From NCBI RefSeq assembly GCF_003385775.1, contig NZ_QRDP01000004.1:1854957-1918956 (forward strand): a DNA stretch of 64,000 nt. The letters are read 5' to 3'. This DNA comes from Parasphingopyxis lamellibrachiae. GTDB taxonomy: Bacteria; Pseudomonadota; Alphaproteobacteria; Sphingomonadales; Sphingomonadaceae. Positions 3,880 through 16,663 of this stretch are shown in pieces. Every line of letters begins with the position of its first letter. The first letter of the stretch is position 1. The position numbers and the translations under genes were made by a program. Under the pieces are notes generated by a model, which saw only the letters and a list, made by a program, of their open reading frames with translations, was not told the DNA's origin and searched no databases.

Positions 3880-5187
3880 ATGGATCAGGCTATCAAGCCG
3901 CCGCGCACGGTCGGGCTGTTCGGGACCGCATTGTTGCCGCTCAACGGGATGGTCGGTGCGGGCATTTTCGCGCTGCCCGCAATCCTGTATGCGGCGGTCG
4001 GCAATTTTGCCCCCTGGATGATCCTGCTCGGCGGGGTCCTCTTCTTCCCGCTGATTTTCGTCTTCGCATCGCTTGGCCGACGCTTCGATCATAGCGGCGG
4101 GCCGATGCTCTATGGCGAAGCGGCGTTCGGGCCCTTTATCGGCTTTCAGGCCGGGTGGATGCGCTATGCCTCCGCGCTCGCGGCGATGGCGGCCAACGCC
4201 CATGTCGTGATTTCCTATCTCGCCGCGCTTTGGCCGGTGCTCGAAGGCCCCGTCGCCCGGCCGCTGGCGGTTGCGCTCTTCATCCTGGCTTTCACGCTGA
4301 TCAACCTGTTCGGCATGACCAAGGCGATGGGTGTTCTGGGCTCGATGACGCTGGTCAAGCTGTTGCCACTGGCGGGCTTTGTCGTCGCGGGCGTTGCGAT
4401 GGGCAGCCCCGCCATCGGCTTTGCCCTGCCCGAATTTACCGCTTTCGAAACGGTCGTCCTGCTGACCTTCTACGCCTTTATCGGATTTGAGAATGTCTCC
4501 ATGCCGGCGGGCGAAATGCGCGCGCCCAAGCGCGATATCCCGACCGCTCTTATCGGCATATTGGCGTTCGTGACGATATTCTACATGCTGATCATCTGGG
4601 CCTATATCGCCATCGACCCGGCCGGAAGCAGCGATACCATGCCGCTTGCGATCGCGGCCGAAGCGGTGATGGGGCAGGTTGGCGCGATCGCCATCGTCGT
4701 CGCGGCCGCCTTCTCCATCGGCGCCAACACGCTGGGCGGTTTCGTCGCCCTGCCGCGGATGACATTCGGCATGGCCGAAGAGGGCATGCTGCCGCCGATC
4801 TTCATGCGCGTGTCCAACCGGTTCCTGACACCCGATTTTTCAATTCTGTTCCTGGGCGGGATCGCCATGCTTGTCGGGCTGACGGGCAGTTTCGTTTTTC
4901 TCGCCGTTGCCGGAACGCTGTCACGCCTCGTCACCTATCTGATCTGCATCGCCGCACTGCCGGTTATCCACTGGCGGGAGGCCAAAGCCAGCGGCAACAG
5001 GCCCTTTTCCTTCGAAACGCTGATGGCGGGCCTGGCCATGATCAGCTGCCTGTGGGTGGCCAATCAGGCCGATAGCCGGGCCTTCCTGACCCTCGCGGCG
5101 ATCCTGGTCGTCGGCAGCCTGCTCTATGTGCTTGGACGGATGAGCGCGAAGCGCGCAGTTGCTGCACAAGCGGAGCACGGCGCTTAG
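3880..5187 (+). CDS. APC-family amino acid permease
   Basis: Inner-membrane secondary transporter, 435 residues with about 12 hydrophobic helices. The first helix has the APC signature LLPLNGMVGAGIFALPAIL, where the glycine-rich unwound part binds the amino group of the substrate. The fifth/sixth helix region has AFIGFENVSMPAGEMRAPKRD, also typical of the family. The substrate cannot be read from the sequence. It stands alone after the Nudix gene with an 80-nt gap. Confidence 0.87.
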   Translation: MDQAIKPPRTVGLFGTALLPLNGMVGAGIFALPAILYAAVGNFAPWMILLGGVLFFPLIFVFASLGRRFDHSGGPMLYGEAAFGPFIGFQAGWMRYASALAAMAANAHVVISYLAALWPVLEGPVARPLAVALFILAFTLINLFGMTKAMGVLGSMTLVKLLPLAGFVVAGVAMGSPAIGFALPEFTAFETVVLLTFYAFIGFENVSMPAGEMRAPKRDIPTALIGILAFVTIFYMLIIWAYIAIDPAGSSDTMPLAIAAEAVMGQVGAIAIVVAAAFSIGANTLGGFVALPRMTFGMAEEGMLPPIFMRVSNRFLTPDFSILFLGGIAMLVGLTGSFVFLAVAGTLSRLVTYLICIAALPVIHWREAKASGNRPFSFETLMAGLAMISCLWVANQADSRAFLTLAAILVVGSLLYVLGRMSAKRAVAAQAEHGA

Positions 5188-5391
5188 GGCCTGACTCCCC
5201 GGCTGGCAAAAACCGGAATCGATCGGAGGGCGTTTGGGCCCGGATTCCGGGCCGCGATATCTGCAGTTCGCCGATGGCCATCCGCGCTTAGCCGATACCG
5301 GCCCGCCATTGGCAGATCGCCGATAGCGGCCTGCTGCGGGAATCCTATCACCGGGCTTGCCGGATTTGGCAGGGGACAGGGGACACGAGAC

Positions 5392-7097: not shown

Positions 7098-7513
7098 GCG
7101 CTGCCGGCGGGCCGGGCAAAGCGCCGGGCCACCCGCGCCTGCCACAGCATCAGCAGCGGCACGACGCCAAGCTCCATCGCAAACCCGAAACGATGACCTT
7201 CCGAAGGCAGGCCATATTCGGCGGCCGACCAAAGACGCGCGAGGCCGCCCATCACGACCATCGCGCCGAGCAACCGGAAACGGGCCGTCTTCGTCTCGAT
7301 CCCCGGCACGCAGCTCGCAAAGGCAATACCGAGCATGAAGAAGATGCCCGACAGATAGCGGAAATGGCTATCGAGATCGCGGATCGGTGGATCATCGATA
7401 CCCGAAAGGACTGACGGCCCGATGACGATGCTGGCCGCACCCATGGAGAGCGGCACGAGGCACGCTATGGCCGTCGCACCCTGCAACAGCCGTTTTTCGA
7501 CGTCCGGCGTCAT
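7094..7513 (-). CDS. DUF4345 family membrane protein
   Basis: A 139-residue protein with four predicted membrane helices and the family features FRYLSGIFFMLGI and MGGLARLWSAAEYGLP. The function of DUF4345 is unknown. Its start overlaps the stop of the DUF2721 gene (ATGA) and its stop overlaps the start of the desaturase gene. All three should therefore be translated together and probably act on the same membrane process. Confidence 0.75.
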   Translation of the reverse strand: MTPDVEKRLLQGATAIACLVPLSMGAASIVIGPSVLSGIDDPPIRDLDSHFRYLSGIFFMLGIAFASCVPGIETKTARFRLLGAMVVMGGLARLWSAAEYGLPSEGHRFGFAMELGVVPLLMLWQARVARRFARPAGSA

Positions 7514-7965
7514 TTACGCGGCCCGCCGACGATATCCGAACGTACATGGATGGCCTTGTTGGCCAGGCGGATTTCATAGAGGAAAGTGACGAGGCCGAGG
7601 ATGAGAAGGCCCATCGCGCCGACAAAGGTGACGGTCGTGACCCCGGTCAACGGCATGTCCAGATGCCGCGCGGCAAACAGCCCGGCGACGACGAGACAAA
7701 CGGCGATCATTGCCATCGTGCCGAAGAGGATCGACAGGCTGATCACATTCATCCGGCGATCGAGCAGGCGCAACTCCCTGACACAGCCGTCATGCTCGGG
7801 GCCCGGCTCCACGGGCAGGATATCGGCGAGTATCCGGGCCCGGTCGACCACCCGGCCGAGCCGCCCCGCCGCGAGAACCAGGAACTGGCCGATCCCGACC
7901 AGCAGGAAAGCCGGCGCCAGGGCCAGCTGGATGGTAATCGCGATATCGAGCGGCATGTTATCCAT
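7510..7965 (-). CDS. DUF2721 family membrane protein
   Basis: A 151-residue protein, first gene of the coupled operon with DUF4345 and sterol desaturase genes. An N-terminal helix (about residues 8-30) is followed by a cytoplasmic segment with GRVVDRARIL and RELRLLDRRMNVI, then two or three C-terminal membrane helices. The segment LLDRRMNVISLSILF is characteristic of DUF2721. Function unknown. The upstream region (7966-8051) is shared with the divergent MFS gene. Confidence 0.75.
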   Translation of the reverse strand: MDNMPLDIAITIQLALAPAFLLVGIGQFLVLAAGRLGRVVDRARILADILPVEPGPEHDGCVRELRLLDRRMNVISLSILFGTMAMIAVCLVVAGLFAARHLDMPLTGVTTVTFVGAMGLLILGLVTFLYEIRLANKAIHVRSDIVGGPRK

Positions 7966-8051
7966 GACCGGTATTCATCGCGCCCGCGCCTGACCGGGTC
8001 AAGCAATGCTATCGGCCGGCACCGATTTTCTGGGTTTCGTTGCACTGCAAA

Positions 8052-9317
8052 ATGAAGCATGCCCCCCGCATGGCGAACCGCGCATCAGACACCCCGGCCC
8101 GCAAGGCACCGGGCTTTGCCGAATTTGTCGCCATGGTCGCATCGCTCATGGCGATGACGGCGCTCGCCATCGATGCGATGCTGCCCGCATTGCCTGCAAT
8201 CGGCGAGGCGCTGGACGTTTCCTCCGACAATGACCGGCAGCTGGTGATCGGCGCACTGCTGATCGGGTTCGGCCTGGCGCAGATCGTCCACGGTCCCCTG
8301 TCGGACCGGTTTGGTCGCCGGCTGCTGCTGATCGGCGGACTTGGCCTTTATGCAGGATCGAGCATCCTGGCCGCCTATGCGCAATCCTTCGAACTGCTGC
8401 TCGCCGCGCGTTTCGCCCAGGGTATTGCCGTTGCCGCGACCCGGGTTCTTGCCGTGTCGATCGTCCGCGATCTCTATGTCGGGCGCAAGATGGCGCAGGT
8501 CATGTCCTTCGCGATGACCGTGTTCATGGCCGTCCCGGTGCTCGCGCCCCTGTTCGGCGAGATCATCCTCGCCTTCGCTTCCTGGCGCTGGATCTTCGGG
8601 ATGTTCGCCCTGATCGGAATCAGCGTCGGGCTCTGGATCGGCTGGCGGCTGCCCGAAACGCTCAAACCGGAAGACCGGATGCCACTGACCGCCTCACGCG
8701 TCTGGCACGGGTGGCGGCACACGCTGACCGAGCGCAAGTCGCTCGGCTATATGGCGGCATCCGCCCTGCTGTCCGGGGCATTGTTCGGCTTTATCAATTC
8801 GATCCAGCAGATCATGTTCGACACATTCCAGCGGCCGAACATGCTGGTGCCGGCCTTTGCGATGATCGCTGGTGCGATGTCGGCCGCTTCGCTGCTCAAT
8901 TCGCGGATTGTCCTCCGGCTTGGCACCCGGCTCGTTTCCCATAGCGCACTGATCGTCTTCATCGCGCTGGCGGCGATCGCGGCGCTCACCGCCTGGTCTG
9001 GGAGCAGCTCGCTCTGGCTGTTTCTCGGCCTGCTGTCGCTGAACATGGGCGCGTTCGGCCTGTGCGGCGCGAACTTCAGCGCGATGGCGATGGAGGAAAT
9101 GGGCGCAATCGCCGGCACGGCCAGTTCCGTGCAGGGGGCGGTCGGTGTCTTTTTCGGCGCGATTGTCGGCGGCGGTATCGGCCAGATGTACGACGGCAGC
9201 ACATTGCCGCTTACCCTGGGCTTTCTGGTCTGCGGCTCGCTCGCTTTGGGGTGCATCCTGATTACAGAAAAGGGCCGGCTTTTCGCCGAGGACGATCTGG
9301 CGGCCGAACCGGTGTAA
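8052..9317 (+). CDS. MFS drug exporter, Bcr/CflA type
   Basis: Inner-membrane proton-coupled exporter, 421 residues and 12 predicted helices. Helix 1 has DAMLPALPAIG, matching the D-x-YLPALP motif of Bcr/CflA transporters. The loop after helix 2 has GPLSDRFGRR (MFS motif A). Helix 4 has the RFAQGIAVAATRVLA stretch typical of drug:H+ antiporters. The ATG at 8052 is preferred to an in-frame TTG at 8040; neither has a clear ribosome binding site. Substrate unknown. Confidence 0.86.
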   Translation: MKHAPRMANRASDTPARKAPGFAEFVAMVASLMAMTALAIDAMLPALPAIGEALDVSSDNDRQLVIGALLIGFGLAQIVHGPLSDRFGRRLLLIGGLGLYAGSSILAAYAQSFELLLAARFAQGIAVAATRVLAVSIVRDLYVGRKMAQVMSFAMTVFMAVPVLAPLFGEIILAFASWRWIFGMFALIGISVGLWIGWRLPETLKPEDRMPLTASRVWHGWRHTLTERKSLGYMAASALLSGALFGFINSIQQIMFDTFQRPNMLVPAFAMIAGAMSAASLLNSRIVLRLGTRLVSHSALIVFIALAAIAALTAWSGSSSLWLFLGLLSLNMGAFGLCGANFSAMAMEEMGAIAGTASSVQGAVGVFFGAIVGGGIGQMYDGSTLPLTLGFLVCGSLALGCILITEKGRLFAEDDLAAEPV

Positions 9318-10188: not shown

Positions 10189-11400
10189 CTAAGCAGGCCG
10201 GACCAGACCGCGCGACAACAGCCGGCGGATCAGATCGATCGCATCTTCCTCTTCGATTTCCGGCAGATCGGCACGGGCAAAAGGCTCGCCGTTCATCGCG
10301 CGCTCGAATGCTTTGCGCTTCGCCCCGACAAATTCGCTCGACCCGCCGCGCGTGACCACCGCAAATTCGCCGCTCTCTTCATCGTCGATGATACGGTACA
10401 GGCCGTTTTCATTGGCCAGATAGCGCTGGTCTTCGGCAATCGGTGCAGAGGCATAGCGGATGATGCCGGCCATTTCGGGCGTCCGCGATTTCACATAGTC
10501 CTCGGCCATGATGTCCAGCGGCTCGTCGAGCTCGGCCTTTTCCACCAGCTCGGCGACAAATTCGCGGAACTGTTCGCGCGCCGGTGCGCGGTCGAACTGG
10601 CGATTGGCATAGCCCGGCGGCAGGGCTCGCCTGAGACCGGGCGTTTCCAGCGCGGCTTTGGACACCGCTTCCAGCACGACATCGGCCCAGGTTTTGGAAA
10701 CAAGGCCCAGCGTGATGTGGAGCGAGGCCGCACCCTCATGCGCCTGGGCATCATGCATCATGCCGCGCGGAATATAGACCGAATCGCCGGCATGCAGGAC
10801 GAATTCCTCGGTCGGCTCGCCCACATCATGGACATCGGGCTCGAAACCCTCGCCGCGGAACGGCTTGCCGACCGGTTCGTCATACAGCCGCCAGCTCTTG
10901 GAGCCGGACACCTGGAGAATGAAAACGTCATGATTGTCGTAATGGGTGCGGAATCCCGTGGCGCCGGGCGGCGTGAGATAACAGTTGGTCTGCACCGAGG
11001 CGCTGAACACCGGCTCCAGCGCACGGACGAAATCGCCGAGCGGCTTGTGATAGCTGTGGAGATGGGGCGCGATGATCGTCGCCTTGTCCTGATACAGGCG
11101 CAGCAGGGCGCTGCGATCGATCTCGTTATTGTCGAGTGTGAAGGCGTCGCGGGTGATCCGCGGATCGGCGCGGGTTGCGTCGATCTGGCCGTTGAAGAGC
11201 AGATTGTTGGCGATAAAGGCATCGATGACGTCGACCGTAAGGAGATCGGTATAGCGATCCGCCTCGTCGCGCGTGATCAGGTGGAATCGTTCCTCGAACG
11301 TATCGGTGAAAAAGGCGCTCGGATCGATCGGATCGAGCACGCGCGCCAGTGCGGCGCTCGATTCCGCCGGAAGGTCAAGAGTCGGATCATATTTATGCAT
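10189..11400 (-). CDS. JmjC/cupin-type Fe(II)/2-oxoglutarate oxygenase
   Basis: A 403-residue protein of the Cupin_4 (bacterial JmjC, ROXA/YcfD-NO66-like) group. Well studied members hydroxylate side chains of ribosomal proteins. The JmjC core covers roughly residues 90-230 and has the iron triad H153-x-D155 (RTHYDNHD) and H216 (PRGMMHD). The C-terminal part (about 290-403) should hold the helical and winged-helix regions seen in this group. The ATG at 11400 follows a strong GGAGG. It is the first gene downstream of the Tat repeat-protein array on the same strand, but a hairpin terminator at 11494-11529 separates them, so it likely has its own promoter. A protein or peptide hydroxylase next to an array of Asp/Asn-rich exported repeat proteins is suggestive; a link is unproven. 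Confidence 0.85.
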   Translation of the reverse strand: MHKYDPTLDLPAESSAALARVLDPIDPSAFFTDTFEERFHLITRDEADRYTDLLTVDVIDAFIANNLLFNGQIDATRADPRITRDAFTLDNNEIDRSALLRLYQDKATIIAPHLHSYHKPLGDFVRALEPVFSASVQTNCYLTPPGATGFRTHYDNHDVFILQVSGSKSWRLYDEPVGKPFRGEGFEPDVHDVGEPTEEFVLHAGDSVYIPRGMMHDAQAHEGAASLHITLGLVSKTWADVVLEAVSKAALETPGLRRALPPGYANRQFDRAPAREQFREFVAELVEKAELDEPLDIMAEDYVKSRTPEMAGIIRYASAPIAEDQRYLANENGLYRIIDDEESGEFAVVTRGGSSEFVGAKRKAFERAMNGEPFARADLPEIEEEDAIDLIRRLLSRGLVRPA

Positions 11401-11493: not shown

Positions 11494-11529
11494 AAAAAAC
11501 GCCGGGTACGAAAATACCCGGCGCTTTTT
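11494..11529 (-). terminator. terminator at the end of the Tat repeat array
   Basis: A perfect 9-bp stem CGCCGGGTA/TACCCGGCG (11500-11508 with 11515-11523) and a 6-nt loop. A T-run lies on the minus-strand exit side (six A's at 11494-11499 on the plus strand) and another on the plus side. It can end transcripts in either direction. It separates the last repeat-protein gene from the JmjC gene. Confidence 0.9.
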
Positions 11530-11555: not shown

Positions 11556-11888
11556 TCAATAGTCCGGGCAGGGCGCTGTGTTTGCCGGATCGGCATTGGC
11601 GCCGCCATCGCTGTCGGAACAGCCGGTGCCGCTGCCGGCACCGCCTGGCGTGCCGCGGCCGTAATTGGCGCGGTCGGCCGTAGCCCCACCGTCGGAATCC
11701 GTAATGCCGGTTACCGAACTGCGGCGTCCGCCGCGGCCCTGGCCGCCCGGATCGGCGTTGGCACCGCCATCGCTATCGGTGATCTGGGCACGCGCCGCCC
11801 CCGTACCCGTTACGATTCCCAGCGCGCCGATACTGGCGGTTGCACCCATCCGGCGCAGGAATGAACGGCGATCAAGTTTCTTGGACAT
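11556..11888 (-). CDS. Tat-exported DSD-repeat protein E (3 repeats)
   Basis: A 110-residue protein, last of five tandem paralogs. The N-terminus MSKKLDRRSFLRRMGATASI is a twin-arginine signal (DRRSFLRRM) with predicted cleavage after GAARA. The mature part is three units of TDSDxGxxADPxGxGRG type, then ends APCPDY. The mature chain has exactly two cysteines, C-SDSDGG...TAP-C, bracketing the last unit. The start at 11888 is supported by GGGAG at good spacing and by near identity of the signal with the paralogs. No known domain; function unknown. The terminator at 11494 follows. Confidence 0.85.
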   Translation of the reverse strand: MSKKLDRRSFLRRMGATASIGALGIVTGTGAARAQITDSDGGANADPGGQGRGGRRSSVTGITDSDGGATADRANYGRGTPGGAGSGTGCSDSDGGANADPANTAPCPDY

Positions 11889-11975
11889 AATTGTTACTCC
11901 CACTCGGCGCTCCTTTCGAGCACCCTCTCCAATTCGCCCCGCCATACAGCCGGGCTGTTCAACCGGTTCCCCGTG

Positions 11976-12704
11976 CTAGTTGCCGCGGCCCTGGCCAACG
12001 GGGTCCGCACTCGGGCCGGTATCGCTGTCGGTAACGCCGCCACGACCACCGCCGCGTCCACCATTGATCGGATCGGCGCTGGCGCCGGTATCGCTGTCGG
12101 TAATGCCGGTGCGCGTTCCGCGACCCTGGCCAACAGGATCGGCGCTCGCGCCCGTATCGCTGTCCGTTACACCGCCGCTACCGCTGCCGCCGCGGCCCTG
12201 GCCAACGGGATCGGCGCTCGGGCCGGTATCGCTATCGGTAATGCCGCCACTGCGATTGCCGCCACGTCCGCGACCGACGGGATCGGCATTCGCGCCGCCA
12301 TCGCTGTCGGTAATACCGCCGCGGCTGTTGCTCGGGCCGCCCCGGCCATTGCCGGCCGGATCGGCGCTCGCGCCGCTGTCGCTATCGGTCAGGCCGCTTT
12401 GCGAGTTGCGGTTATTGCCGGCAGCGCGACCTTCTGGCCGGGCACTGCCCTCGCCGCCGCCTTCGCTTCCGGCCTCGCCGCCATCGTCAGGCTTGGCATC
12501 GTCGCCACCAGCGGATTCGTCGCCGCCTTCGCCATTGCCCTCTGGCGCCACTTCGTCGCCGGGATCGGTTCCCACGGCATCCTCATCATCGTCTCCGCCC
12601 AGGCCAAGCCGGTCGCAGGCTCCCGTGACCACGGCCATGGCGCCAAGACTGGCGGTTGCGCCAACCCGGCTAAGAAACGAACGGCGATTGAATTTGGATG
12701 ACAT
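11976..12704 (-). CDS. Tat-exported DSD-repeat lipoprotein D (6 repeats)
   Basis: A 242-residue paralog with a twin-arginine signal (NRRSFLSRVG) ending in VVTGAC. This looks like a lipobox, so the protein may be a Tat-dependent lipoprotein anchored through Cys29. Unlike its neighbours it has a long acidic, Gly-rich spacer (about residues 35-110, with GGDDDEDAVG and GGDDAKPDDGGEAG). Six repeat units follow, ending ADPVGQGRGN. It has no cysteine after the lipobox, whereas the other four paralogs have a Cys pair. A strong ribosome binding site (AAGGGGAA) precedes the ATG. It could be the membrane-anchored partner of the soluble paralogs; this is inference. Confidence 0.85.
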   Translation of the reverse strand: MSSKFNRRSFLSRVGATASLGAMAVVTGACDRLGLGGDDDEDAVGTDPGDEVAPEGNGEGGDESAGGDDAKPDDGGEAGSEGGGEGSARPEGRAAGNNRNSQSGLTDSDSGASADPAGNGRGGPSNSRGGITDSDGGANADPVGRGRGGNRSGGITDSDTGPSADPVGQGRGGSGSGGVTDSDTGASADPVGQGRGTRTGITDSDTGASADPINGGRGGGRGGVTDSDTGPSADPVGQGRGN

Positions 12705-12824
12705 TAGGAGTTCCCCTTGATGAAACTATATATTTGGGCCTTTCAAACAAAGGCAGCGGCATTCACAGTCCGTGAACGACGCCTTGTCCCATAACCCGGA
12801 ATTTTGCGGTTTTCGCAGCGATTA

Positions 12825-12864
12825 CCCGGCATCGGCGGGGCTCATGCCCATAACCGATGCCGGG
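12825..12864 (-). terminator. hairpin after DSD-repeat protein C
   Basis: Arms CCCGGCATCGG (12825-12835) and CCGATGCCGGG (12854-12864) form a perfect 11-bp stem around an 18-nt loop, 8 nt after the stop codon of the gene ending at 12872. No T-run follows, so it may be a stabilising or partial terminator stem rather than a full stop. The rest of 12705-12871 holds no gene. Confidence 0.5.
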
Positions 12865-12871
12865 ATATCGT

Positions 12872-13177
12872 CTAGTCGCTGTCGCTGCAGGCTCTTCCGC
12901 GTCCGCCCGGATCCGAACGGCCACCGGAGTCGTTATCGCTGCAGCTGCGTCCGTTTCCAGCGCGATCGCTGCTGCCACGGCCGGCTCCAACATTGTCCGA
13001 ATTGGCGCCCGTATCGTTGTCAGTTCCGCCGCCGACGGGATCGGCACTGGCGCCGGTATCGCTGTCGGTGACCTGGGCCCGCGCAGCGCTGACCCCTGTG
13101 ATTACGCTCAACGCGCCAACACTGGCGGTTGCGCCGACGCGGCGCATAAAGGAACGGCGATCCAATTTCTTATTCAT
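12872..13177 (-). CDS. Tat-exported DSD-repeat protein C (3-4 degenerate repeats)
   Basis: A 101-residue paralog. Twin-arginine signal DRRSFMRRVG, predicted cleavage after VSAARA. The mature chain opens QVTDSDTGASADPVG and continues with shortened units (TDNDTGANSDNVGAG, CSDNDSGGRSDPGG). It stops abruptly after a final CSDSD, as if the last unit had been cut off. Two cysteines bracket one unit, C-SDNDSGG...GRA-C. The ribosome binding site GAGGGGAAG precedes the ATG at 13177. It sits between paralogs B and D with an 88-nt upstream gap that contains an inverted repeat near 13220-13256. Confidence 0.85.
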   Translation of the reverse strand: MNKKLDRRSFMRRVGATASVGALSVITGVSAARAQVTDSDTGASADPVGGGTDNDTGANSDNVGAGRGSSDRAGNGRSCSDNDSGGRSDPGGRGRACSDSD

Positions 13178-13265
13178 TACTCTTCCCCTCTTACTAAACT
13201 CGATTGGTCAATTCTTCAGCCGGGATTCCGATCGATTCATGCCGATCCGATTCCCGGAGAAGTTT

Positions 13266-13979
13266 CTAGCGGTCCGTACCGCGGCCATAGCCGCCGCGAT
13301 CAGCGTTCGAGCCGCTGTCAGCATCGGTGATGCCGGTGCGATAATTACGGCGTCCGCCGCGGCCATTGCCGCCCGGATCGGCCATGCTGCCGCTGTCGCT
13401 GTCGGTCAGCCCGCTGCGACCGCAACGGCGGCCACGGCCACCCGGATCGGCATTGCGACCACCATCGGAATCGGTGCAACCGCTACGGCTGCCCCGGCCA
13501 TTGCCAGCCGGATCGGCATAGCTGCCGCTGTCGCTGTCGGTAATGCCGCTACGCCGGCTGCCCCGGCCGTTGCCGGCTGGATCGGCATTGCGGCCGCTGT
13601 CACTGTCCGTGATGCCGCTGCGCCGACCGCCCCGGCCGTTACCGGCTGGATCGGCATTACGCCCGCTGTCGCTGTCCGTGATGCCGGTACGTCGGCTACC
13701 CCGGCCGCGACCGGCCGGATCGGCATTGCTGCCGCTGTCGCTGTCCGTGATACCGGTACGCCGGCCGCGTCCACGACCAACCGGGTCGGCATTGCGGCCC
13801 GTATCGCTGTCGGTAACGCCGCCGCGCCCGCCGCCGATGGGATCGGCATTGCGGCCGGTGTCGCTATCGGTGATCTGGAACGCCCGGGCCGGGCTTCCCG
13901 CCACTACTCCCAATGCGCCTACGCCGGCTGCGGCGCCGACGCGCCTCAAAAAAGATCTGCGATCGAGCTTTTTACTCAT
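13266..13979 (-). CDS. Tat-exported DSD-repeat protein B (9 repeats)
   Basis: A 237-residue paralog, the most regular of the five. The Tat signal DRRSFLRRVG is followed by cleavage after about AGSPARA. Nine units of TDSDxGxxADPxGxGRG follow, joined by Arg/Ser-rich links such as SRRTG and GRRSG, with a weaker last unit (TDADSGSNADRGGYGRG). Its two cysteines bracket unit 7 (C-TDSDGGRNADPGGRGRR-C). The ATG at 13979 follows GGGGGAGA and is preferred to the in-frame GTG at 13994. The pattern D-x-D-x-G-x3-D resembles calcium-binding Asp repeats but is not identical to EF-hand, dockerin or thrombospondin type 3 loops. Confidence 0.88.
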   Translation of the reverse strand: MSKKLDRRSFLRRVGAAAGVGALGVVAGSPARAFQITDSDTGRNADPIGGGRGGVTDSDTGRNADPVGRGRGRRTGITDSDSGSNADPAGRGRGSRRTGITDSDSGRNADPAGNGRGGRRSGITDSDSGRNADPAGNGRGSRRSGITDSDSGSYADPAGNGRGSRSGCTDSDGGRNADPGGRGRRCGRSGLTDSDSGSMADPGGNGRGGRRNYRTGITDADSGSNADRGGYGRGTDR

Positions 13980-14130
13980 GAAACTCTCCCCCACATAAAA
14001 TTACGCGTGCCCTGTACAGGGCTGTAACCATCCTGCGTGAGCGTGTCAAAAAACATTCTTTTATTGATAATCGTTCGCATTTTCTGGCCTTTCTCCTTGG
14101 TTTGCGACCCTGGCGGTTTCGACGCCGGCA

Positions 14131-14544
14131 CTAGGGTATACCCGTGTCCGGGCAGCGGGATCGCGTCCCGCCCCGGCCATAGCCGGCCGGATCCGCGCAC
14201 CGCCCCGAATCGCTGTCGCTGAACCCGGAATGGCCGCGTTCACCGCGCCCATTGCCCGCCGGGTCCGCAAGCCGGCCACCATCACTGTCGGTAACGCCGG
14301 ACCGGGACTGTGCCCCCCGCCCATGCCCGGCGGCATCGGCAAATTCGCCGCCATCGCTGTCGGTAATGCCGGTCCGGCCATAATCGCGGCCGGGCCTGCC
14401 CGGCGGATCGGCATATTGCCCGCGATCATTGTCGCTGTGCTGCATGGCCCGCGCGGGCCGGGAACAGGCCAGCAGGCCGATGGTCGTCGTCGCACCGACG
14501 CGGCTCAAAAAGGATCGGCGGCTGGAAAGGATTCGCCCTGACAT
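14131..14544 (-). CDS. Tat-exported DSD-repeat protein A (4 repeats), coupled to rhodanese
   Basis: A 137-residue paralog, first of the array. Tat signal SRRSFLSRVG; cleavage is predicted after RPARA, though LLAC could also act as a lipobox. Four units follow (from HSDNDRGQYADPPG to FSDSDSGRCADPAG), with two mature cysteines (C-ADPAGYGRGGTRSR-C) near the C-terminus. Its ATG overlaps the stop codon of the rhodanese gene (TGATG), so the two are translationally coupled. The 151 nt downstream (13980-14130) contain a short palindrome CCCTGTACAGGG and a weak Fur-like stretch but no gene. Confidence 0.86.
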   Translation of the reverse strand: MSGRILSSRRSFLSRVGATTTIGLLACSRPARAMQHSDNDRGQYADPPGRPGRDYGRTGITDSDGGEFADAAGHGRGAQSRSGVTDSDGGRLADPAGNGRGERGHSGFSDSDSGRCADPAGYGRGGTRSRCPDTGIP

Positions 14545-15110
14545 CAGGCGCCGATCCCGCTGGAGCGCGCCACCCAGCGCACCTCCGGCTCAGTGAAATC
14601 GACCGCCTCGCCCAGCTCATAGACATTGGGATAGCCATAGCCGTGCAGGTTGATCATCGTCTGGATGTTGAGCGCCAGCGTGACCATCTTGCGGACGACC
14701 GGCGCCACATTGTTCACGAAATTGTTGTTGCAATAGATCAGGATCGGCCGGTCCGCCTCGGGCCCGATGACCGCTGCGAGGCTCTGGGCGGTGAAATCGG
14801 GCAGCGGCAGATTGACCGCGCCTTCGATATGGCCCTGCGCAAAAGCTTCGGCGGACCGCGCGTCGAGAAGCAGCGTATCGGGCTCGGCCGCCATCCTCTG
14901 GAACGTCGCCAGATCGATCAGGCGCTCGGCGCGCAAGCTCTGGACGGTTGCAGCAATCCCGATAAAGCCGGGAAAATCTATCTGCGGGTTATTAGCAGGA
15001 GCAAGACGGGCCGGAGCGGCATTGTCGCCCCCCTTCGCGGCCGTATCCGCCAGCGCCGGACCGCTGGCCACAATCAGGCCGGCACAGATTACCGATAGCA
15101 ACACGCGCAT
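14544..15110 (-). CDS. periplasmic rhodanese-like protein
   Basis: A 188-residue exported protein. Sec signal peptide MRVLLSVICAGLIVASGPAL with cleavage after ALA (residue 21). A single rhodanese domain spans about residues 60-175, with DTLLLDARSAEAFAQGHIEGAVNLPL and the putative active-site cysteine C127 in ILIYCNNNFVNN. The loop after the cysteine lacks the arginine usual in sulfurtransferases (CxxxxR), so activity may differ. The stop codon overlaps the start of the first Tat repeat-protein gene. Coupling to exported proteins that carry paired cysteines hints at sulfur or disulfide chemistry in the periplasm; this is inference. Confidence 0.83.
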   Translation of the reverse strand: MRVLLSVICAGLIVASGPALADTAAKGGDNAAPARLAPANNPQIDFPGFIGIAATVQSLRAERLIDLATFQRMAAEPDTLLLDARSAEAFAQGHIEGAVNLPLPDFTAQSLAAVIGPEADRPILIYCNNNFVNNVAPVVRKMVTLALNIQTMINLHGYGYPNVYELGEAVDFTEPEVRWVARSSGIGA

Positions 15111-16234: not shown

Positions 16235-16663
16235 CTAGCGTTCGAGCTGGCCGCGCACCGCGCCCGCCGGATGCGGCTCATTATGGACATTGACGTAGAA
16301 ACCGCCCGGATTGTCCCGCAACTCGCGGCGCAGGGAGGATGAGATTTCGACACAGCCGTCGCTGCCGCCATCCGCGCCCGGCGTGTCCAGTGTGATGACC
16401 GGTGGCCCGGCCTCGCCCGCCGCCCCGCGATGGACATGGGCGGCCGTGGCCGGATCGATATCGTCGATGGAAAGCGCATAACAGAGCTGCTCGTCTTCGC
16501 TGTCCCAGTCCAGCGTGGCGATGCCCGCCCCGTCCGGATCTCCCGGCCCGGGCACTTCGGCGGCGCCCGTCAGGTCGGCGGAATAGGATTCCTGCGCCAG
16601 TGCAGGCGCGCTGAGCCCGGCTGCGGCGATTGCGCCCAGCAGGATCGATGGCGTGATTTTCAT
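16235..16663 (-). CDS. exported CHRD domain protein
   Basis: A 142-residue protein with a Sec signal (cleavage after APALA, about residue 23). One CHRD domain fills the mature chain. Visible motifs are SYSADLTGAAEVPGPGDPDG, the AAHVHRGAAGEAGPPVI stretch with the conserved HxH, and the end FYVNVHNEPHPAGAVRGQL. CHRD domains were first defined in chordin and occur in many bacterial exported proteins, with no established biochemical role. The ATG at 16663 follows GGGAG. Confidence 0.88.
   Translation of the reverse strand: MKITPSILLGAIAAAGLSAPALAQESYSADLTGAAEVPGPGDPDGAGIATLDWDSEDEQLCYALSIDDIDPATAAHVHRGAAGEAGPPVITLDTPGADGGSDGCVEISSSLRRELRDNPGGFYVNVHNEPHPAGAVRGQLER

Follow-up and report, generated by a model that had tools for sequence, protein, structure and literature searches.

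Tat-exported aspartate-repeat proteins and an adjoining JmjC_2 oxygenase in Parasphingopyxis lamellibrachiae and other Proteobacteria: a putative substrate-enzyme system

The locus considered here lies in a 64,000-nucleotide stretch of the Parasphingopyxis lamellibrachiae genome (the window, whose positions serve as gene coordinates) and comprises, in order along the minus strand, a gene for a rhodanese (15110-14544), five genes for short repeat proteins (D1-D5) and a gene for a JmjC_2 oxygenase (11400-10189). All five repeat proteins open with an RRSF[LM] twin-arginine translocation (Tat) signal and continue in Asp-rich units of the form [TS]D[SNA]D, 26 in total: four in D1 (14131..14544, 137 aa), nine in D2 (13266..13979, 237 aa), four partly degenerate ones in D3 (12872..13177, 101 aa), six behind a long acidic linker in D4 (11976..12704, 242 aa) and, as read from the sequence, three in D5 (11556..11888, 110 aa). 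In the six-frame translation of the window, all 25 occurrences of the longer motif [TS]D[SNA]DxGxx[ASR]D fall on the minus strand inside the array. A first-pass annotation had described five adjacent minus-strand Tat genes of DSD-type repeats headed by a coupled, signal-peptide rhodanese, and this description holds: the start of D1 overlaps the rhodanese stop in the sequence TGATG, and the rhodanese itself (14544..15110, minus strand) matches PF00581 at 2.1e-11.

The Tat signals of D1 to D5 begin RRSFLSRVG, RRSFLRRVG, RRSFMRRVG, RRSFLSRVG and RRSFLRRMG, respectively; D2 and D3 exceed the cut-off of the TIGR01409 Tat-signal model (20.5 and 17.5 bits, cut-off 16.7), and D1, D4 and D5 are without a listed match. 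Judged from these signals, the likely starts of D2 and D5 are the ATG codons at 13979 and 11888, and a lipobox-like TGAC stretch, recognized by eye, suggests that D4 may be a Tat lipoprotein. No Pfam family matches D1-D5 at E values up to 0.1, the calcium-repeat profiles (RTX, dockerin, and TSP3) included. Beyond the Tat-signal matches, the NCBIfam candidates ClfB, TatB_1, and formate_TAT were rejected, all being far under their cut-offs, and D2 falls outside the MSCRAMM SD-repeat proteins, with 17.2 bits against the 999 required for ClfB. Two long plus-strand open reading frames antisense to the repeats (12993-14027 and 11980-12720) are probably a chance product of the repeat codons.

The oxygenase gene lies directly downstream of D5 on the same strand, 155 bases past the range of 11556-15110 previously assigned to the array; that range encloses the repeat genes and the rhodanese but leaves out this member of the same locus. 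Its 403-aa product (10189..11400, minus strand) is a predicted JmjC_2 (PF08007) Fe(II)/2-oxoglutarate (2OG) oxygenase of the NO66/MINA53 kind (6.6e-28; 97.2 bits against a cut-off of 22), a PDB sequence search matches it to NO66 at 3.5e-31, and its kinship to an uncultured Parasphingopyxis stands at 92%. The AlphaFold2 (AF2) model (predicted local distance difference test [pLDDT] 90.1, predicted template modelling score [pTM] 0.85) aligns over residues 9-403 with NO66 (4y4r_A; Z 32.3, root-mean-square deviation 4.9, 385 residues), taking in the barrel, dimerization, and winged-helix parts; the corresponding Z is 29.6 for MINA53 and about 19 for YcfD, and both Foldseek and VIA place NO66 and MINA53 at the top among the matches listed. 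Since the same genome also holds a separate YcfD-like ROX enzyme (L144), which matches Pfam ROXA-like_wH as the array oxygenase does not, the latter is a distinct paralog. The HxD...H iron triad and the 2OG lysine are kept (H153, D155, H216, K168) and are invariant, together with N139, in a 27-row alignment (A3). Such ligands would be needless for a pure chaperone, and it is accordingly very improbable that the protein is a non-catalytic chaperone or Tat proofreading factor binding the repeat precursors, although the uniformity of the Tat signal, which extends past the twin arginines (core RRSFLxRV, the eighth position being V in 111 of 118 RRSF signals compared), speaks in favor of such a role.

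The association of the two genes recurs far beyond this locus. A scan of one genome per species, queried with an alignment of seven such enzymes, retained the best 80 of 416 relatives, and a Tat Asp-repeat gene adjoins the oxygenase gene at 73 of the 80 loci (or 73 of 76 once the contig-edge loci are set aside), a proportion drawn from a biased sample, as the scan was seeded with enzymes already linked and kept the best matches. Four loci begin at a contig edge (L084, L096, L121, and L143), and three show no repeat gene alongside. By scripted count, the repeat gene stands within 400 bp at 66 loci (at L064 a closer one lies at 5044-5376) and at 572 and 611 bp in two more; the gaps of L113 and L120 are negative, the repeat gene slightly overlapping the enzyme match, with the two genes side by side. 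A Tat protein with TD[SAT]xDQxGGEx-type repeats is encoded directly upstream of the oxygenase at L101, L126, and L136, and a repeat gene lies upstream at L117 and downstream at L134. In general the repeat gene is upstream, with downstream, same-strand (L106, L153), convergent (L109, L134), and divergent (L173-L176) arrangements also found; the link therefore outlasts rearrangement. The neighbor tables disclose no third gene conserved beside the pair across lineages, and no tailoring enzyme, protease, or transporter that recurs across them; the variable neighbors, mostly named by eye, include ruvC-, transketolase-, strictosidine-synthase-like, and enoyl-CoA-hydratase-like genes. At five loci from Gammaproteobacteria (L101, L108, L117, L126, and L136), a PepSY_TM-like gene directly follows the oxygenase gene, a faint pointer to iron. 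Among these downstream genes Pfam was consulted for that of L117 alone (7155-8330); the further Pfam checks concerned the strictosidine-synthase-like product at L116 and, at L126, a second PepSY_TM.

The same pairing emerges from samples that were chosen without regard to it. In an even sampling of the phylum (398 genomes), eight genomes from six genera match the enzyme profile A3 at E values no higher than 1e-50, and a Tat repeat gene lies beside the oxygenase gene in all eight (seven plus the window's genome). Four of the seven non-window loci are divergent, and their precursors are as short as 94 aa with two units. At E values up to 1e-6, repeat profile A4 matches seven of the 398, every one of them among the eight oxygenase genomes; the eighth, G504, holds a repeat gene (L174) that scores under the threshold. 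These absences are not absolute, as the first-pass genome scoring covers few candidates per genome. In 142 genomes of the class, 21 of which carry any JmjC_2 protein at E up to 1e-8, the 20 JmjC_2 loci outside the window's genome comprise three of the linked group, each with a repeat gene, and 17 others, none of which has a Tat-repeat gene within flanks reaching about 1 kb past the gene ends (less for L155); a pattern match at one of these controls, L164, is porin-like and was scored as no repeat gene. The repeat profile likewise finds no match in the genomes of the 17 controls and matches four of the 142, the same four that hold a linked-group oxygenase. In one of these, G062, repeat matches fall on four contigs against just one JmjC_2 locus, from which the enzyme would have to work in trans. 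Fisher tests, uncorrected for kinship, gave 2.7e-14 (phylum sample) and 6.2e-8. The short two-unit precursors of L173-L176 (94-102 aa in several), divergent to the oxygenase, are the most RiPP-like form seen, RiPPs being ribosomally synthesized and post-translationally modified peptides.

This distribution bears on a rival account in which the repeats would merely bind calcium at the cell surface (the first-pass annotation had proposed calcium-binding surface proteins), with the oxygenase a passenger acting on something else. The DxD-rich, Gly-rich repeats do resemble calcium loops by eye, and a lipobox-like stretch, defined by a loose pattern, is present in 35 of 125 repeat chains. Such near-perfect co-occurrence, adjacency in several gene orders, and the lack of a Pfam match for D1-D5 nonetheless make this the least probable of the explanations considered.

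In a tree of 64 rows, which takes in 38 of the 80 scan loci and leaves out L173-L176 (missed by the motif search), the linked enzymes cluster with one another, separately from the YcfD-like controls and the majority of the other JmjC_2 controls, and the label linked or unlinked changes four times, against 18.0 in shuffles. Residues typical of the linked group include T138, L142-T143-P144, G183-E184, W238-A239, and G352 (46 rows versus 18 controls); the Fe and 2OG ligands are common to both sets.

The rhodanese, by contrast with the oxygenase, was rejected as a core partner, having been seen only in the window's genus. A search with D2 matched 12 of 60 genomes: all ten of the genus (the 2.95-Mb host genome included), G023 from another genus of the same family, and G043 from another family of the same order. 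Wherever the contigs of a genus member extend across the block, its rhodanese, three to five repeat genes, and oxygenase are found again, with a rhodanese in all seven other genus array loci uncut by a contig end (L039, L042, L043, L044, L046, L050, and L052), and the contigs of L045 and L059 end short of its position. Among the 80 oxygenase loci, however, the rhodanese cluster has five members, all within seven loci of the genus (L064-L070). The stretches L055 and L058 from the two outlying genomes, found via the repeat protein alone, hold a repeat gene adjoining an oxygenase of 33% identity and no rhodanese match. Outside the genus this is the outcome that the first-pass annotation had named as refuting, no conserved rhodanese beside the homologues, and a defining role for the rhodanese is not supported.

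Other features of the genus-level loci are recorded here as separate observations. Repeat genes without an adjoining oxygenase (L009, L010, L040, L041, L047, L051, L053, L054, and L060-L062) occur in the genus, and G043 has two, L056 and L057, with no oxygenase in the stretch fetched. One orphan in the window's genome (L009:8501-9145) has at least eight units and neighbors resembling, on inspection by eye, genes for 4-hydroxyphenylpyruvate and homogentisate dioxygenases; another (L010:6877-8468; G000:C1, about 1976876-1978467) is a lone Tat-lipoprotein-like Asp-repeat gene overlapping one whose membrane-protein product matches HGSNAT_cat and DUF418, a pair seen again by eye in L041, L051, and L054, and a DUF418 protein is also found near the L058 pair. 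A secreted CHRD-domain protein (PF07452) is encoded at 16235-16663, with similar proteins near the array in several genus members by eye. Finally, a hairpin occupies the gap between D5 and the oxygenase gene (11500..11523; minus-strand fold -29.1 kcal/mol, z -8.0). In the terminator scan it is a plus-strand site only, and the scan counts 2 sites of this kind in the region against a mean of 4.6 in shuffles. The hairpin may be a partial terminator that keeps enzyme output under substrate output. Hairpins were noticed by eye in the equivalent gap of L066, L070, and L095 among 12 gaps inspected.

A two-gene system of a repeat substrate and a ROX-like oxygenase, of which the window's array is one branch, spans Alpha- and Gammaproteobacteria. 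That the two proteins are partners is near certain from the genomics, and it is likely that the oxygenase oxidizes the repeats. The array would accordingly consist of substrates together with their modifying enzyme, a dedicated Fe/2OG oxygenase acting on exported Asp repeats, a reading to which a probability of roughly 0.7 is assigned. The earlier suggestion that the chains are modified before export, perhaps as multi-core modified peptides, is strongly favored because the JmjC_2 gene and the repeat genes go together with few exceptions. Tat carries finished chains out of the cytoplasm, leaving time for a cytoplasmic Fe/2OG enzyme, and to our knowledge the periplasm is without 2OG. Under the proposed mechanism, every repeat would have residues oxidized, most simply hydroxylated, by the oxygenase while still in the cytoplasm, which supplies 2OG and Fe(II), and Tat would then export the finished, modified chain; the choice of Tat would be explained because modification precedes export. 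The uniform Tat signal perhaps doubles as a recognition site for the enzyme, one oxygenase may serve repeat proteins from several loci in trans, and the hairpin after D5 perhaps sets the substrate-to-enzyme ratio.

Which residue would be modified is less sure, with the Asp of TDxD, giving beta-hydroxyaspartate, as the first candidate. The usual protein targets of 2OG oxygenases are Asp, Asn, His, Arg, Lys, and Pro; Thr and Ser are not usual. A tally of 931 units from 85 loci, some of which are copies of the same genome, finds about three Asp per unit, and residues present in fewer than half of the units are Arg in six loci, Asn in 14, Pro in 19, and both His and Lys in all 85. Asp is ranked first and Arg second because, of the usual targets, only Asp persists in the units throughout the lineages seen.

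Several observations weigh against this reading, in whole or in part. The units were located by a D-x-D pattern, which makes Asp 100% by construction; Thr, too, occurs in at least half of the units at every locus, and Ser falls below half in just one. At most loci nearly every unit contains Arg (median fraction 1.0), in a Gly-rich setting, and the invariant columns of A4, a profile that contains no Arg-poor lineage, comprise T, D, and G of TDxD...D..G.G plus several Arg. Related enzymes of solved structure modify His or Arg. With the same pairing, the target could instead be the Arg within GxGRG of each unit, after the manner of YcfD, which shares the fold and hydroxylates Arg81 of ribosomal protein L16 (PMC4295552). 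Six of the 85 loci (L101, L108, L117, L125, L126, and L136), however, keep the adjoining oxygenase with Arg in fewer than half of their units, and the closest structures are NO66 and MINA53 rather than YcfD, so an Arg target is considered unlikely. A cross-link or other oxidation in place of simple hydroxylation appears more doubtful still: 2OG-dependent dioxygenases that macrocyclize RiPPs have been reported (Xia et al., 2025, cited in PMC12710340), but the closest structural relatives of the oxygenase are hydroxylases. As for the pairing, the fetched stretches of three oxygenase loci (L099, L127, and L129) reveal no adjoining repeat gene; as these loci are nested within the linked group in the tree, the picture suggests that the substrate gene was lost or lies at a distance. 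Some repeat genes (e.g., L009, L010, and L056) are far from any oxygenase gene, and action in trans must therefore be assumed. The joining branch of the linked group reaches only 94/53 and takes in L168, a very long row without the link; strict monophyly is thus not established. The weakest part concerns function, namely that the exported or lipid-anchored chains could bind metal (Ca2+ or Fe3+) multivalently or form envelope polymers; the AF2 model of D2 is of low confidence (pLDDT 46.4), and no structural claim is drawn from it.

Several known systems invite comparison. With the ROX enzymes NO66, MINA53, and YcfD/RoxA, the array oxygenase shares the PF08007 domain, the Fe/2OG ligands, and the fold over residues 9-403; it differs in its genomic partner, a Tat-signal repeat protein, in the typical residues of its group, and in residing in a host with a YcfD-like gene besides (YcfD is reviewed in PMC4295552). 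Genome context points away from a ribosomal-protein substrate. As in RiPP loci, a putative precursor gene lies beside the gene for its presumed modifying enzyme, both in the scan and in the phylum sample. BipG, the JmjC ornithine hydroxylase of the RiPP biphenomycin (PMC12707348), likewise represents a JmjC gene beside the peptide it modifies, whereas the array precursors have many units and Tat signals. RiPP recognition element-like folds fused to PF08007, and bacterial PF08007 homologs in RiPP-like contexts, are described in PMC12710340, whose references 40-45 concern, by title, lanthipeptides, leader proteases, epimerases, prochlorosins, and a 2OG macrocyclase, with none on these repeats. 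Ribosomal peptide metallophores from multinuclear iron oxygenases (Leprevost et al., 2024, cited in PMC12710340), oxidatively modified and with a metal role, offer a possible functional model, although the enzyme family is different and no DUF692 enzyme was noticed at these loci, where no search was aimed at DUF692. AspH, acting on EGF-like domains (PMC6817910), parallels the proposed Asp hydroxylation of repeated exported modules but is an enzyme of the endoplasmic reticulum with unrelated repeats. Collagen and its prolyl hydroxylases (PMC4295552) combine exported repeats rich in Gly and a 2OG oxygenase of their own, in contrast to the 19 of 85 array-type loci with Pro in fewer than half of their units. 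No description of the repeat-oxygenase pair was found among the literature matches listed, most subscription papers being beyond the reach of the search.

A broader proposal, put forward tentatively and at somewhat less than even odds, is that the system constitutes a bacterial analogue of hydroxylated extracellular-matrix repeats, wherein a ROX-type enzyme, diverted from the ribosome to an expandable family of Tat-exported repeat proteins dedicated to it, writes beta-hydroxyaspartate at dozens of positions in an array. The products would be polymers, secreted or of the envelope, that bind metal multivalently, and a single enzyme would serve substrates from several loci. If the oxygenase does modify the repeats, a group of bacterial NO66/MINA53-like enzymes would gain a non-ribosomal substrate, a natural system would be at hand in which a single enzyme modifies many repeats, a reason would be offered why low-complexity chains travel by Tat, and aspartyl hydroxylation of bacterial proteins would become directly testable in laboratory strains. 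The pair may also bear on the origin of eukaryotic NO66 and MINA53. Much as animals hydroxylate collagen, some bacteria would perhaps decorate Asp repeats chemically prior to export.

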